Source: Halorubrum saccharovorum DSM 1137
Lineage (GTDB): Archaea > Halobacteriota > Halobacteria > Halobacteriales > Haloferacaceae
Direction: 5' to 3'
Assembly: GCF_000337915.1 (NCBI RefSeq)
Contig: NZ_AOJE01000010.1
Coordinates: forward strand, 97,653-161,652
DNA length: 64,000 bases
The notes under the pieces are model-generated. The model saw nothing but the letters and a program-made list of their open reading frames with translations. It searched no databases and was not told where the DNA came from. Position numbers and translations under genes: made by a program. This document shows, one piece after another, positions 6,613 to 47,552 of this stretch (position 1 is the stretch's first letter; each line of letters opens with the position of its first letter).

Positions 6613-6688
6613 CGGGCTCGTGGTTCGAGACGACGCGAGCGTGACCGGGCGCCGCATCGCTTTTGCACTCACCCCGCGAAAGGGGGGT

Positions 6689-6973
6689 ATGAAGGCGTTA
6701 CTGCTGTTGGTCGCCGGGATCGGCGGACTGATCGAGACGCTCGTTCCCCGGGCCGTCGTGCGCGCCTGGACGAAGGCGCTGTACCGGAACGCGGGCGACG
6801 CGGAGCCCCGCGAGTGGGTGTACGCCGCCGCACGCGCCGAGGGTGCGGTCGTCGTCCTCGCCGCGCTCGTTGGGCTGTACGGCGTTGCGACGGCCGAGGA
6901 CGACGAGCCGGCCGACGAGGGTGACGGCGCCGACGAGACATCGGTCGCGGCCGATCCGAGAAACACCGCCTGA
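6689..6973 (+). CDS. Small membrane protein, unknown function
   Basis: A 94-residue protein. Two hydrophobic segments (residues 1-22 and ~49-68) flank a loop with the pattern WTKALYRNAGDAEPREWVY, and the tail is strongly acidic. The ATG at 6689 directly follows a G-run. The pattern of an N-terminal helix, short conserved loop and second helix is frequent in haloarchaeal small membrane proteins, but I cannot name a family. Confidence 0.6.
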   Translation: MKALLLLVAGIGGLIETLVPRAVVRAWTKALYRNAGDAEPREWVYAAARAEGAVVVLAALVGLYGVATAEDDEPADEGDGADETSVAADPRNTA

Positions 6974-41800: not shown

Positions 41801-42044
41801 GTGCCAGGGACACTCGGCGCGTCGGGCATACGTCTTTCTCCTCGACGGACCCGTGGAGCGTCAACGATCAGAGTACCGATCCGACCTTGACTCGCCGAAC
41901 CGGTACCCTCGATGGAAGTCCCCTACACCTGTTCCGGTCGGCTTCGGCGGTCGCCGGGAGACCACGACTCACCCATCAAACCAGCAACATACTCCCCAAC
42001 TTCTTACATACCTATTTAATATCTATTACGTTCATTATTTAAGA

Positions 42045-42575
42045 ATGTCCGTAGGACAGGAGCTACTCGACGTACCGTTCCCCGAGATGATCGCGAGCAT
42101 GGGTCAGGGGATCGCGGACGCACAGAACCAGTTAGACATGAACTCGGTCGAGGTCGCGAAGATCCTCGCCGACACGGAGATCGAGGTCATCCCGGCGATC
42201 ACGCGGACGATCGATACGGACGGCGACGTCACCTACTCCGAGGCGGACCCGATCGACGTCTCCCTGCTGCAGGCCGGGCTGTTCCCGACGTTCTACCAGT
42301 TCTCGGAGGCCGTCATCGAGGTCGAGATGGACATCAAGACGACCACCGAGCGCGAGACGAACATCGACGTGAGCGCCGAGGCGCACGCCGGGTTCGGCCT
42401 CTGGGGCGGGAGCATCCAGACCGACGTGAGCCACAACCGCAAGTTCGGCAAGGAGGTCCACGGCACGAGCAAGCTGAAGACCACGATGGTTCCGGTGCCG
42501 GAACCGCCGTACCTCTTCCCCGAGGTCGAGACGATCGACCAGCGAGAGCCCGAAGTCGAAGAAGAGACGGAGTGA
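42045..42575 (+). CDS. Unknown-function operon, gene A (DUF2589-like paralogue 1)
   Basis: A 176-residue protein. An N-terminal amphipathic helix region (residues ~6-42, FPEMIASMGQGIADAQNQLD) is followed by strands with IEVIPAITRTI, LLQAGLFPTFYQFSEAVIEVEMDI and a Ser/Gly-type middle (AHAGFGLWGGSIQTDVSHNRKF), and it ends with a proline turn VPVPEPPYL. The shape (helix, then long strands, then a conserved GFWG-like turn) recalls bacterial DUF2589 proteins, whose role is unknown. The ATG at 42045 follows an AT-rich promoter (TATTTAATA ~30 bases before). It is the first gene of a five-gene block and has two paralogues in it. Confidence 0.7.
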   Translation: MSVGQELLDVPFPEMIASMGQGIADAQNQLDMNSVEVAKILADTEIEVIPAITRTIDTDGDVTYSEADPIDVSLLQAGLFPTFYQFSEAVIEVEMDIKTTTERETNIDVSAEAHAGFGLWGGSIQTDVSHNRKFGKEVHGTSKLKTTMVPVPEPPYLFPEVETIDQREPEVEEETE

Positions 42576-42607
42576 CCGAATCCGAAAGAGACGGAGTGAC
42601 CGAACCC
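42561..42607. repeat. Tandem duplication across the stop codon of gene A
   Basis: Two ~23/24-base units, GAAGAGACGGAGTGACCGAA and GAAAGAGACGGAGTGACCGA (42561 and 42584), each continuing TCC or CCC. Each unit contains the TGA stop context, so the 3' end of the gene was duplicated. Confidence 0.85.
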
Positions 42608-42678
42608 GCCGCTCACTCCGCCCGTGCGCTTTCGCACGAGATCCGCATCGGCGGAGGAGAGCGGCATCGCTGAGACTC

Positions 42679-43248
42679 ATGCCATTACGAGCACATCACC
42701 TACCATCGCGCAGTATCGCCCCCGCTCGACCGTCCGACGCGGTCGCGGACGTCCCGTTCGACGACCTCGTCTACCTGCTGGCCGCCGGCGTCGCCGACGC
42801 CCAGACCGAGCTCGACGCACACGCCGTCGAGACGTTCACGACCCTCGCGGAGACGGAGGTCGAGGTCGTCCCGACGCTGACTCGCACCATCGAGTCGGAC
42901 GGGACGGTCACGACGGACGCCGCGGCGACGGAGCGTCGATCCCTGCTCGAACTCGGTCTCACGCCCGATCGATACCAGTTCAGCGATGCGACGATCGAAG
43001 TCGATGTCGACGTTAGCGTCGCCGAAAGCGACCGAACAGAGAGCGGGCGTTCGGATCGGGCGTTCGGTCTCCGGGCGGGCACCCAGTCCGTGATCGACCG
43101 GCGAACGTTCGACCGCGAGGCCGGCGCGAACGCCCGGCTCGAAGCGCGGCTCAAACCGACACCCATGCCGGCCGCGGCCGGAGCCAGCGAGACGGACGAG
43201 ACGAGCGACGGGCTCGCCGCCGGCGACGGAGGCGAGCGTGCCGACTGA
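42679..43248 (+). CDS. Unknown-function operon, gene B (paralogue 2)
   Basis: A 189-residue protein. From residue ~24 it aligns with gene A: DVPFDDLVYLLAAGVADAQTELD (A: DVPFPEMIASMGQGIADAQNQLD), TEVEVVPTLTRTIESDG, LELGLTPDRYQFSDATIEV, and a variable middle ending KPTPMP. The N-terminal ~23 residues and the acidic tail are unique. The hydrophobic surface helix and the strands are retained, which suggests it pairs or co-assembles with A. Start ATG 42679, 103 bases after A. Confidence 0.7.
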   Translation: MPLRAHHLPSRSIAPARPSDAVADVPFDDLVYLLAAGVADAQTELDAHAVETFTTLAETEVEVVPTLTRTIESDGTVTTDAAATERRSLLELGLTPDRYQFSDATIEVDVDVSVAESDRTESGRSDRAFGLRAGTQSVIDRRTFDREAGANARLEARLKPTPMPAAAGASETDETSDGLAAGDGGERAD

Positions 43249-43630
43249 CGAGTGGCTCGCGCGTCCGCTCAAGGAGTTCATCCGGACGGTCGCGTTCTCG
43301 GTCGCGGAGGGGCAGGAGGAGCTCGACCGGCGGTCGATGGAGGTCCAGCGCGCGATCGACCGCGATGTCGAGGACGGGACCCTCGCGTACGACCTCGACG
43401 CGTCGTGGCTCAGGTTCGCCGACGTCGAGGCGGACCTGGAGATGACGCTGTCGATCGAGGGACAGGAGATCCGCGATCCGGAGACCAACGAGGTCCGCGC
43501 CTACAAGCCGGTCGTGAGCGCCGTTCCGCTGAACCACCGCGTCACGAACGAGTACGATCTGGACGCCGAGATCGCCAGCGAAGTGCGGCTTCGCATCGCT
43601 CCCGTCCCGCCGGAGTCCCGCAACCCATGA
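43238..43630 (+). CDS. Unknown-function operon, gene C (paralogue 3)
   Basis: A 130-residue protein. It shares the helix pattern LKEFIRTVAFSVAEGQEELD and the strand LRFADVEADLEMTLSI with genes A and B and ends with LRIAPVPPE, like their proline turn. It is shorter and lacks the Ser/Gly middle. The GTG at 43238 overlaps the end of B by 11 bases, and its stop overlaps the next start (ATGA), so B, C and D must be one transcript. Confidence 0.7.
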   Translation: MPTDEWLARPLKEFIRTVAFSVAEGQEELDRRSMEVQRAIDRDVEDGTLAYDLDASWLRFADVEADLEMTLSIEGQEIRDPETNEVRAYKPVVSAVPLNHRVTNEYDLDAEIASEVRLRIAPVPPESRNP

Positions 43631-44973
43631 GCGACCGCGAGCGGTCCACCGTCGACGCCGGCGCGACGCGGTTCGCCGAGACGTTCCAGCTGGAGGAGAT
43701 CCCCCAGCTCGACGTCGGCAAGTTCGAGACCGTCGAGCGGGCGGCGGTCGAACGGCTGATCACCGAACAGCAGGAGTCGCTCGTTCGCCTGCAGACCGAC
43801 GTGCTCGACGTTCGAAGCGAGCGGACCGCCTTGGAACGCCAGCTCTCGAAGGTCGAGGCACAGCGCGAGGAGCTTCGGGAGCGGGTCGGTGAGCTGGAGG
43901 CCCAGCGGCCGGCGGTGGAGCCGAAGCAGGTCTTCTCGAACCTCGGCGCGGCGCTCGAAGAGGTCGACGACGACCTGGCGAGCGAGCGCTACCGCGTCGA
44001 CGACGTGGACTTCACGCTCAAGACGAACGTGATCCAGACGGACGACGGGATCCGGATGCACCTGCCGTCGCTGGACGAGTCGTCGGTGTCGGCGAATCTC
44101 AGCGAGGTCTCGTTCCGGCTGCGCGCTCCGCGCGGGGAGCCGGAAGACGCCGGATCGGGGTACACCGACGTGCCGGACCTGCGGGGCCAGCCGCACGAGG
44201 TCGCGGCGCGCCGGCTCGCCGCGGCCGACCTGACCGTCGGGGCGGTCGAGCGCGTCGCCGATCCGGAGATCGAACCGGGCGCCGTCATCGAGCAGTTCCC
44301 CGAGCCATACGCCGTCGCCGAGCCCGGGTCGCCCGTCGATCTGGTACTCTCCGAAGGGCCGGAGAGCCAGACGGACGCGGCGAGCCAGACGGACGCGGCG
44401 AGCCAGACGGACGCGGCGAGCCAGACGGACGCGGCGAGCCAGACGGACGCAGACCCGGCTCCGGAGTCTGACGGCGACACGGGAAGCGAGGACGACGGCG
44501 CCGGCCAGGCAGAGGAAGATGGCGCCGACCAGGCGGAGGGCGACGACGCCCCACCGGAGAAGCTCGACGGCGACACCGAGCGAGCGCGCATGGAGGCGTT
44601 CAGACGCGCGATAATCGGGGTGGATCCCGAGAACGGTCCCGCGGTCGTCGAACGGCTCCGCCGCGCCGGCGTCACCGACCTCGAATCGCTGGTCGAGCTG
44701 GACCCCGAGAAGATCGCCGCGGAGCTCTCTCTGCCGGTCGAGCAGATCGCCGCCCTCCAGAAGCGGCTCGGCGGCCGAGACGAACCGATCGCGCTCGAAG
44801 AAGTGACCGGGATCGGCCCGACGTACGCGGGTCGTCTCCGTGAGAAGGGCGTCCGGAACGTCTCACAGCTCGCGGCGCTCGACCCCGACACCGTCTCGGA
44901 GATAACCAAGGCGTCGACGAGTCGGGCCGAGGGCTGGATCAAGGAGGCGACGCGGATGGCGGCGGACCGATGA
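43627..44973 (+). CDS. Unknown-function operon, gene D: coiled-coil/PASTA/helix-hairpin-helix protein
   Basis: A 448-residue multidomain protein. Residues ~36-95 form a coiled coil (RTALERQLSKVEAQREELRE). Residues ~97-168 form a strand-rich domain whose YRVDDVDFTLKTNV resembles the Y-x-F strand of genes A-C. Residues ~179-243 form a PASTA-like domain (VPDLRGQPHEVAARRLAAAD, ending VDLVLSEGP). A perfect SQTDAA repeat (~247-275) and an acidic linker follow. Two C-terminal helix-hairpin-helix modules (~330-383 and 390-447, VTGIGPTYAGRLREKGVRNV) could bind DNA or proteins. Such a mix of a cell-wall-type PASTA domain and HhH modules is unusual. Probably the scaffold of a complex with A-C. Confidence 0.85.
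   Translation: MSDRERSTVDAGATRFAETFQLEEIPQLDVGKFETVERAAVERLITEQQESLVRLQTDVLDVRSERTALERQLSKVEAQREELRERVGELEAQRPAVEPKQVFSNLGAALEEVDDDLASERYRVDDVDFTLKTNVIQTDDGIRMHLPSLDESSVSANLSEVSFRLRAPRGEPEDAGSGYTDVPDLRGQPHEVAARRLAAADLTVGAVERVADPEIEPGAVIEQFPEPYAVAEPGSPVDLVLSEGPESQTDAASQTDAASQTDAASQTDAASQTDADPAPESDGDTGSEDDGAGQAEEDGADQAEGDDAPPEKLDGDTERARMEAFRRAIIGVDPENGPAVVERLRRAGVTDLESLVELDPEKIAAELSLPVEQIAALQKRLGGRDEPIALEEVTGIGPTYAGRLREKGVRNVSQLAALDPDTVSEITKASTSRAEGWIKEATRMAADR
44365..44454 (+). repeat. 18-bp tandem repeat encoding SQTDAA, 5 units
   Basis: AGCCAGACGGACGCGGCG repeats without change four times (44365-44436), with a fifth altered unit (44437-44454), in frame inside gene D. Identity at the DNA level points to recent expansion. 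Confidence 0.95.
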
Positions 44974-45272
44974 GCGTCGCGGAGCGGTTCGGCGCGTCCG
45001 TCGAGGTCGCCGGACCGGACCCCGAGGCGGAGGGGTTCTTCTTCGTGAAACGGCGGGACGCGGTCGACCACGATGCGTTCGTCACCGGTCTGCTCGGACT
45101 GGTGGGGACGGCCGGCCGCCTCGTGCTCCACCACCAGTCGGGGTTCGCGATCGTTCGCCTCTCCCACGGACGCGCTCAGCAGCTGGGACGACTCCCGTGG
45201 ATCGACACCGTCGGCGGAATCCGGTTCGATCCGGAGCAGTTCGCGGCGGTCGCGGGCGCTCCCGTCGCGTGA
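44970..45272 (+). CDS. Unknown-function operon, gene E: small I9-like protein
   Basis: A 100-residue protein. Two alpha/beta repeats are suggested: GFFFVKRRDAVDHDAFVTGL and FAIVRLSHGRAQQLGRLPWI, then DTVGGIRFDPEQFAAV. The strand-helix-strand pattern and the end 'I-x-x-V-G-G-I' look like a peptidase-inhibitor I9 / subtilisin-propeptide fold, although no protease is adjacent. The ATG at 44970 overlaps the D stop by four bases. Last gene of the block. Confidence 0.65.
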   Translation: MSVAERFGASVEVAGPDPEAEGFFFVKRRDAVDHDAFVTGLLGLVGTAGRLVLHHQSGFAIVRLSHGRAQQLGRLPWIDTVGGIRFDPEQFAAVAGAPVA

Positions 45273-45338: not shown

Positions 45339-47552
45339 ATGGTCCCGTCGTCGGAGCCGCTCTCGCTTCGCGAGCGGTTAGACACACTGACCCGCCAGCG
45401 GGGAGACATCACGGTGCTTCACGTCGATGACGAACCGGGGTTCGCGGAGCTCGTTTCCATCTATCTCGAACGCGAAGGGGAGGCGCTGGAAGTCGTCACC
45501 GAAACGAGCGTCGAGGACGGGCTCGATCGGCTCGAAACCGGCGGCGTCGACTGCGTCGTCAGCGATTACGACATGCCCGGAACCGACGGGCTGGAGTTCC
45601 TCGAAGCGGTTCGAGCGGAGCACCCGAACCTCCCGTTCATCCTGTTCACCGGCAAGGGAAGCGAGGAGATCGCGAGCGAGGCCATCTCGGCGGGCGTCAC
45701 CGACTACCTCCAGAAGCAGGGGGGAACGGACCAGTACACGCTCCTCGTCAACCGGATCGAGAACGCGGTCCAGCAGTACTACGCCACCAGAGAGGTCCAG
45801 CGAGGGTTCCACGCCATCGAAACCACGCGGGAGGGGATCGCGTTCCTCGACGAGGAGGGTCGGTTCCTCTACGCCAACCCGGCGTACGTCGACACGTACG
45901 GCTACGAGCGCGAGGAGATGATCGGAGAGCACTGGGAGATGCTGTATCCCGACGATCACGTGAGCAGGGTGTACGAGGAGATCCTCCCTTCTGTCCCCGT
46001 CGAGGGGGAATGGACCGGAGAAAGCGTTCACAAGCGCAAAGACGGGACGCGGCTGGTGGTCGACCACGCCCTCTCGTACTGCACCGAGGGGACGCTGCTC
46101 TGTTTCATTCAGGACATCACGGCACAGGAGGACGAGGAGCGGGCGCTCGAAGGCGGGCGACACCGCCTCTCCGAGTTCGTCGACGCGGTCGAGGAGTACG
46201 CGATCGTCGCGCTGGACCCCGAGGGGTTCGTCACCAGTTGGAACCGGGGAGCGGAGCGGCTGAAGGGGTACTGCCAGGAGGAGATCGTCGGCGAGCACGT
46301 CTCCGTGTTCTACCCGGACGAGAAATCCGAGGAGGGGTACGCCGACGAGCTGTTAGAGACCGCACGCGACGCCGGCTCGGCCACGGACACGGGACGGCGC
46401 GTTCGCAAGGACGGGTCCACGTTCAGGGCGGACGTCGCCATCACGGCCGTCTTCGACGACGACGGCGTCCATCAGGGGTTCCTCAAGGTCACCCGGGACG
46501 TGACTCGACAGCGAGAGGCGAGACGGGAACGCGAAGTCGAACAGGACTTCCTGGATAAGGCGCTCAACGTTCTCGACGACCTCTTCTACGCGATCGACGA
46601 CCACGGGAACATCGTTCGCGTGGCCGATCGCGCGACGGAGGTGACGGGCTACTCTCGGACGGAGCTCCTGTCGATGTCACCCGCTGACCTGTTCCCGCCC
46701 GAGGACCGACAGCGGATCCAAACGGATATCGACGAGGCGTTCGAAACCGGGTCGGCGACGACCGAAGCCGACCTGCTGACGAAAGACGGGCGCACGGTCC
46801 CGTACGAGTTCCGCAAGCGTCGGCTCACGGACACCGAGGGGAACCAGTTCGTGGTCGGTATCGGTCGCGACATCAGCGATCGCAGGCGCCGCGAGCGCCG
46901 GTTGCGGCGCCAGTTGGACCAGTTCGAACACTTCGGAAGCGTGCTCTCACACGACCTGCGGACGCCCCTGGAGACGGTTCGGGGCCGGCTGGAGCTGGCC
47001 CGAGAGACCGGCGACGAGGGGCACCTCGCGAAGGCCGACGCGGCGCTCGAACGGCTCGACGACATCATCGACGACCTGGCGGCCGTGATGCGAGAGGGCG
47101 AACTCGTGAGAGAGTTCACAGACGTGGAGCTACGGGAGTGTCTACGGGACGCCTGGAGCTCACTGGAGACCGCCGAGGCGACGCTGACGGTCGAGGGGAA
47201 CGGAACGATCCGAGCGGACGAGGACGCGTTCAGACGGCTGGCGGAGAACCTCTTCAAGAACAGCATAGAACACGGCGGCGACGACGTCCACGTGACCGTC
47301 GGAACCCTCCCTGACGGCTTCTACGTCGAAGACGACGGTCCGGGGATCCCCCCGGCTGACCGCGATCGCATCTTCGATGCCGGCCACTCCACGAAAGCGA
47401 CCGGCGGCGGATTCGGTCTGGCGAGCGTCCGGCAACTGGTGCTCGCACACGGCTGGGAGATCACGGCGACGGAGGGGGAGGGAGAGGGCGGGAGGGAGGC
47501 GGGCGGCGCCCGCTTCGAGATAACGGACGCCGACGTCGAGACCGGGAGCTGA
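45339..47552 (+). CDS. Hybrid receiver-PAS3-histidine kinase
   Basis: A 737-residue cytoplasmic sensor. The receiver is at residues ~24-140 (LHVDDEPGF, phosphoacceptor Asp76 in VVSDYDMPGTDG). Three PAS domains are at ~143-265 (GIAFLDEEGRFLYANPAYVD), ~270-395 (YAIVALDPEGFVTSWNRGAE) and ~400-520. The HisKA has the H-box SVLSHDLRTPLETV near residue 535, and the ATPase has NLFKNSIEHGG (N-box), VEDDGPGIPP (G1) and GGGFGLASVRQL (G2). No transmembrane helix. Its receiver is the closest relative in the window of the one at 7044. 66 bases after the unknown operon, and possibly its regulator. Confidence 0.93.
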   Translation: MVPSSEPLSLRERLDTLTRQRGDITVLHVDDEPGFAELVSIYLEREGEALEVVTETSVEDGLDRLETGGVDCVVSDYDMPGTDGLEFLEAVRAEHPNLPFILFTGKGSEEIASEAISAGVTDYLQKQGGTDQYTLLVNRIENAVQQYYATREVQRGFHAIETTREGIAFLDEEGRFLYANPAYVDTYGYEREEMIGEHWEMLYPDDHVSRVYEEILPSVPVEGEWTGESVHKRKDGTRLVVDHALSYCTEGTLLCFIQDITAQEDEERALEGGRHRLSEFVDAVEEYAIVALDPEGFVTSWNRGAERLKGYCQEEIVGEHVSVFYPDEKSEEGYADELLETARDAGSATDTGRRVRKDGSTFRADVAITAVFDDDGVHQGFLKVTRDVTRQREARREREVEQDFLDKALNVLDDLFYAIDDHGNIVRVADRATEVTGYSRTELLSMSPADLFPPEDRQRIQTDIDEAFETGSATTEADLLTKDGRTVPYEFRKRRLTDTEGNQFVVGIGRDISDRRRRERRLRRQLDQFEHFGSVLSHDLRTPLETVRGRLELARETGDEGHLAKADAALERLDDIIDDLAAVMREGELVREFTDVELRECLRDAWSSLETAEATLTVEGNGTIRADEDAFRRLAENLFKNSIEHGGDDVHVTVGTLPDGFYVEDDGPGIPPADRDRIFDAGHSTKATGGGFGLASVRQLVLAHGWEITATEGEGEGGREAGGARFEITDADVETGS

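Follow-up and report, generated by a model that had tools for sequence, protein, structure and literature searches.

The five-gene cassette and its distribution

We analyzed a window of 64,000 nucleotides from Halorubrum saccharovorum DSM 1137 (contig NZ_AOJE01000010.1, positions 97,653 to 161,652), in which a first-pass annotation made from the letters alone had described an unfamiliar operon of five genes, here called A to E. Reexamination of the open reading frames returned the same five genes, at the same coordinates and with the same overlap sizes. Positions are those of the window, that is, of the whole stretch analyzed.

42045-42575, + strand: gene A, 176 amino acids (aa), DUF2589-like, with a helix at aa 12-43 and a long beta-hairpin
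42679-43248, + strand: gene B, 189 aa, a paralogue of A that lacks the long hairpin
43238-43630, + strand: gene C, 130 aa, GTG start, a short family member with a Trypco2-like core
43627-44973, + strand: gene D, 448 aa, with a coiled coil, the family core, a PASTA domain and a helix-hairpin-helix (HhH) region
44970-45272, + strand: gene E, 100 aa, element order beta-alpha-beta-beta-alpha-beta, putative I9-like fold

A gap of 103 bases separates A from B, after which B and C overlap by 11 bases and C and D, like D and E, by 4. The overlaps had been said to demand a single transcript; that wording is too strong, but one transcript is very likely. Third codon positions are GC-rich in all five genes (0.81 to 0.92) and all five have conserved homologues, and A to E are real genes conserved as a unit. 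The H. saccharovorum genome holds a single copy of the set, and the A protein used as a query matches only A and B there.

Domain collections have little to say about these proteins. Even at an E value of ≤1, a Pfam scan left A, B, C, and E without a match, and above the cut-offs it recognized only the PASTA and HhH domains of D; NCBIfam gave no match above its cut-offs for any of the five, and PHROGs gave weak matches only. With no enzyme family in the Pfam and NCBIfam scans, the earlier remark that A to E lack an enzymatic motif holds. No signal peptide or transmembrane segment is apparent by hydropathy.

The A query found the set in 12 of 293 genomes of the order, and a C profile, run over 391 genomes of the class, found it in 26. 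A scan of prokaryotes with one genome per species (84,980 species) yielded 58 loci, mostly bacterial, so the system extends well beyond haloarchaea. All five genes are grouped in the haloarchaeal loci, in the order A-B-C-D-E or else with swapped modules, C-D-E preceding A-B. Gene calling with family profiles recognized full bacterial sets at 22 loci, ordered E-A-B-C-D in 20 and A-E-B-C-D in 2, from about ten phyla: Pseudomonadota, Chlorobiota, Cyanobacteriota, Chloroflexota, Thermomicrobiota, Bacillota, Actinomycetota, Acidobacteriota, Gemmatimonadota, and Thermodesulfobacteriota. The first-pass annotation had made its view of the locus as a system depend on gene order being conserved in relatives, and it is conserved there.

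Bacterial A proteins of the main group are 51 to 67% identical, and A relatives in archaea and bacteria overall mostly 51 to 95%. Many bacterial loci come from metagenome bins, whose labels may be wrong; isolates of Parerythrobacter, Sandarakinorhabdus, Rhodoferax, and Sphaerotilus also carry the set. On the Sphaerotilus plasmid NZ_CP035710 it forms five consecutive genes, each a "hypothetical protein" in RefSeq, flanked by metabolic genes. Incomplete sets in close relatives mostly sit at contig ends, and a more distant group has A-C-D alone or multiple A-type genes. In a tree of A proteins the bacterial phyla are intermixed at short distances and the deep forks are weak; such mixing is as would be expected of horizontal transfer, or of misbinned contigs.

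In the B gene of one relative (L027, genome G073, around positions 6660 to 6720), an in-frame TAA replaces the lysine codon present in its sister (L026), which points to a decayed gene or a sequencing error. Cryomorphaceae (L120, L122) have an expanded set in which several A-type genes, one of them an OmpA-domain fusion, accompany a coiled-coil PASTA D.

Kinship of A to D with DUF2589 and a possible link to Trypco2

To relate the proteins to one another we used HHalign profile comparisons with 60 column-shuffled controls per pair. A and B, which are 40% identical, align with an E value of 2e-50, A and C with 1e-15, and B and C with 3e-13. A profile of archaeal and bacterial DUF2589 proteins aligns with A at 1.8e-8 (95%) and with B at 4e-5. 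Haloarchaeal C aligns with bacterial C at 3e-6, bacterial C with bacterial D at 1e-4, and bacterial D with haloarchaeal D at 3.5e-8 (1.8e-7 in a separate run). No shuffle scored as high in any of these comparisons. By profile comparison, A, B, C, and DUF2589 are one superfamily, which the core of D joins through bacterial C and D proteins. E gave null results against both A and C and, on the same type of evidence, is unrelated to them.

These comparisons bear out the initial view of A, B, and C as mutual paralogues, as well as the proposed kinship of the central domain of D with them, the latter by way of the bacterial proteins. The suggested likeness of A to C to DUF2589 stands as profile homology but not as Pfam membership. 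Against PF11655 (cut-off, 23 bits) the window's A, B, and C give no match at an E value of ≤1; the best cassette member scanned reaches 12.7 bits, and a PF11655 search of the window's own genome matches only a DUF2589 pair on another contig.

That pair is canonical, and downstream of it comes a third gene whose core is similar (G000:C8:32398-33466; L001, L002, L035). DUF2589 sets resemble the cassette in their helix, strand pair, P-x-Y-F-E-V/P-T-F-Y-Q-F strand, and amphipathic hairpin, all of which align with the five-gene family, and in having a third gene with the same core, which in some haloarchaeal relatives also carries an HhH domain. Unlike the cassette, the DUF2589 sets seen consist of two or three genes and lack both E and a coiled-coil D, and the two kinds of set occur independently of each other. 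In one published study (PMC3949148), the Archaeoglobus fulgidus DUF2589 genes AF0414-AF0417 are up on lactate.

Among bacterial DUF2589 records, the peptidoglycan-active neighbors at L153, L154, L155, and L166 are SLT, N-acetylmuramidase, and a muramidase-like open reading frame, and a conserved protein of 91 to 93 aa follows the DUF2589 genes at L153, L155, and L166.

One reading of this kinship is that the cassette encodes an envelope-associated apparatus akin to the bacterial DUF2589 sets, which would meet the cell wall or envelope and work with cell wall modules or enzymes. Peptidoglycan-active genes occur close to bacterial DUF2589 pairs wherever neighbors were readable, which is in four records (L166 judged by eye from the sequence), the Cryomorphaceae have their OmpA fusion, and D carries PASTA. 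Four records are few, however, haloarchaea are without peptidoglycan, and no wall enzyme recurs beside the five-gene set, whose proteins have no apparent signal peptide. We regard this reading as unlikely.

The long hairpin of A sets it apart from B.

42345-42446, + strand: amphipathic beta-hairpin of A (aa 101-134), with a conserved aromatic tip followed by an HNRKFG-xx-GTS motif

Across 40 A proteins this segment alternates hydrophobic and polar residues, with an aromatic or hydrophobic tip before HNRKFG-xx-GTS, and its beta moment (aa 103-131) is reached by 0.18% of shuffles. B has no such hairpin, and bacterial DUF2589 proteins have an equivalent one with a GWGP tip. The A model, built from 58 sequences, comprises a long helix plus two long strands, between which residues 101-134 form a low-confidence stretch.

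A second named family enters through C. Trypco2 (PF19631) has been named as an adaptor in conflict systems that bear peptidases (PMC7159879, PMC10907252), among them the vWA-MoxR-VMAP systems (PMC7159879), and it shares a helix, a hairpin, and the last strand with the C core. The C protein of one bacterial set (L094) passes the Trypco2 cut-off of 24.2 bits with 27.6 bits, the match lying inside that set; C of the window gives no match. The cassette differs from Trypco2 systems in that no trypsin, VMAP, vWA, or MoxR partner is seen and that four family members form the system themselves. When we clustered the proteins encoded around the 58 loci, no sixth gene family recurred beside the set over distant lineages, so the cassette does not qualify as a VMAP/MoxR-vWA ternary conflict system, which would have a vWA protein, a MoxR ATPase, and VMAP (with trypsin for Trypco2) encoded nearby. 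The frequent clusters from outside the set (an ABC-type ATPase, an AMP-dependent ligase, and an acyl-CoA-dehydrogenase-like protein) occupy unrelated positions and were rejected as partners.

The Trypco2 link raises the question of whether the cassette is itself a conflict system, for defense or suicide, in which A would be a pore former that inserts its hairpin in the inner membrane when triggered, with B to D as sensor or adaptor and E as inhibitor. The relation of C to an adaptor named for such systems, the pattern of the A hairpin, and the sparse, patchy distribution over distant phyla all fit. Yet no peptidase, NTPase, or nuclease recurs next to the set, and in several Halorubrum species it sits at a single conserved site, unlike a fast-moving defense gene. 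PADLOC found nothing specific, its matches being generic coiled-coil and PASTA (PD-T4-6) models, and we rejected assignment to a known antiphage defense system. On balance the conflict reading seems unlikely.

Modules of D, protein E, and the proposed assembly

The coiled coil, single PASTA domain, and HhH region initially read from the letters of D all reappear in the Pfam scan.

43738-43917, + strand: coiled coil of D (about aa 38-97), matched by Pfam coiled-coil families and conserved in the alignment
43927-44130, + strand: core domain of D (about aa 101-168), homologous to the C terminus of bacterial D (HHalign)
44167-44352, + strand: PASTA domain of D (aa 181-242), PF03793, E value 6.3e-10
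44641-44949, + strand: HhH region of D (about aa 339-441), PF14520 (HhH_5), E value 6.7e-13, in two stretches, the best at aa 390-441

PASTA and HhH are found in D of haloarchaea and Acidimicrobia; they are mostly absent from bacterial D, and other domains occur elsewhere. In Pontiellaceae, a PASTA-like plus HhH-like extension, read from the sequence, sits on C. At 44368-44445 the linker of D contains a tandem repeat of SQTDAA that is absent or different in relatives.

Protein E was modeled with AlphaFold, as a single chain like our other structure models, at a predicted local distance difference test (pLDDT) score of 86. Like the I9/subtilisin propeptides it has the order beta-alpha-beta-beta-alpha-beta, and Foldseek ranks a subtilisin propeptide as its best match (E value 0.022, probability 0.99). 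A profile of E against PDB sequences gave two weak matches, one of them the subtilisin propeptide 1scj_B (E value 0.93). E differs from these propeptides in being a separate gene with no adjoining subtilase, in its extra C-terminal helix, and in the lack of a significant sequence match. The model is thus suggestive of a fold compatible with I9, as had been supposed, with no single match significant.

If E were a true I9-type inhibitor, the cassette could be a peptidase-regulating complex in which A to D position E against a subtilase encoded elsewhere. This would suit its fold, the weak match to 1scj_B, and the name and context of Trypco. But no protease recurs in the neighborhoods, and E runs past its last strand into a helix, whereas the free C-terminal tail of propeptides enters the active site. 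We consider such a role very unlikely.

A different kind of ancestry is suggested by the A model, which matches one uncharacterized viral protein (Foldseek E value 3.6e-6). The cassette could be a remnant or relative of a phage tail-like structure, in which hairpin-bearing subunits would form the tube and a coiled coil would serve as the ruler, and in one Acidimicrobiaceae bin a gp19 tail-tube gene (L108:510-938) does lie shortly before an A-C-D set. That gp19 protein, however, has no relative near any other locus then examined; gp19 occurs in only 2 of 10 carrier genomes tested; relatives of A are absent by sequence from phage and viral collections; and no sheath, baseplate, or terminase was seen, sheath and baseplate not having been searched for separately. 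With a single gp19 neighbor and no viral A relatives by sequence, we rejected an origin from a phage or an extracellular contractile injection system (eCIS), and the tail-like reading seems highly improbable.

We tentatively favor a different reading, plausible though short of probable, in which A to E make up one self-contained system. A to D would co-assemble through their shared helix-plus-beta-hairpin fold into a cytoplasmic hetero-oligomeric scaffold, a ring or filament; this is the simplest reading because four homologous small subunits are always co-encoded, one of which has a coiled coil as well as exchangeable end modules. D could then act as a coiled-coil arm whose exchangeable recruitment modules are PASTA and HhH in this set and are missing or of other kinds elsewhere. 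The hairpin of A, missing in B, may face the membrane or the lumen of the assembly, since its amphipathic character suggests membrane insertion or lumen lining. E might serve as an assembly chaperone or inhibitor. The first-pass annotation had proposed a shell or tube, which likewise stays a hypothesis.

Several results weigh against this proposal. The A model is only moderately confident (pLDDT 70, predicted template modeling score 0.49), and Foldseek gave it no significant solved structure; the PDB likewise holds no relatives of A and C. None of the Foldseek matches of E reaches 0.001. The direct comparison of haloarchaeal C and D (E value 0.013) is too weak alone and that of A with bacterial D is null (0.4), so membership of D rests on the chain via bacterial C and D. 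Trypco2 matches at an E value of <1 occur in only 4 of 23 bacterial C proteins, the best at 8.9e-6.

The cassette fits no described kind tested, while its parts are kin to known but uncharacterized domains. A literature search under the family names, with subscription papers and preprints outside its scope, found no description of the five-gene set. Few gene sets that lack relatives of known function stay together, with their order permuted, over archaea and some ten bacterial phyla, and this one is a first system-level home for DUF2589 and Trypco2. Both families become testable in culturable carriers: Halorubrum and Natronomonas isolates, Rhodoferax, Sandarakinorhabdus, and Sphaerotilus. Should A to D form one assembly, it would be a structure nobody has looked for; should A insert in membranes, it would connect a pore or scaffold with the conflict systems that bear Trypco2. 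The broader notion, of a widespread undescribed class of assemblies with four paralogous subunits and an I9-like accessory, a membrane-contacting ring or tube with exchangeable modules that unites DUF2589 and Trypco2, is more doubtful.

The promoter element and neighboring genes

A sequence element upstream of A is conserved in relatives.

42004-42022, + strand: promoter element TTACATAC-NNN-TTTAATAT, its TATA-like part beginning some 30 bases upstream of the A start codon (ATG), a leaderless-type spacing

The element occurs once in the window and in none of 100 shuffles with up to 2 mismatches allowed. Among 52 genomes of the genus Halorubrum, the exact element is found once each in 9 and nowhere else, the reversed-pattern control giving 0. 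All 9 are carriers of the cassette by the C-profile search, and no noncarrier has the exact element; of 2 further carriers without it, one has a single-base variant. A wider regulon was rejected: there is no second exact site in the 52 genomes and hence no co-regulated genes, near matches not having been searched for genome-wide. The element is a predicted dedicated promoter and not the mark of a wider regulon, and the Halorubrum cassette is probably switched as a single unit from it.

Several Halorubrum species share the genes that flank the set. Its neighbors in the window are a kinase, a universal stress protein, and a DJ-1-like protein. Where Halorubrum loci run past E, the stress protein gene normally comes next, with one relative having another gene between. 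The hybrid histidine kinase at 45339-47552 (receiver, three PAS domains, HisKA, and ATPase) stands between E and the stress protein gene only in the lineage of the window. The first-pass annotation had supposed that this kinase might control the operon; it is absent from the relatives whose loci extend past E, and we therefore rejected it as a partner.

Halorubrum noncarriers offered no definable clean empty site: they keep the stress protein and DJ-1-like genes, but the other flank differs, so that no insertion scar could be defined. In the Comamonadaceae sets (L091, L092, L098), PEP-CTERM-like and TPR-like proteins are encoded ahead of E.

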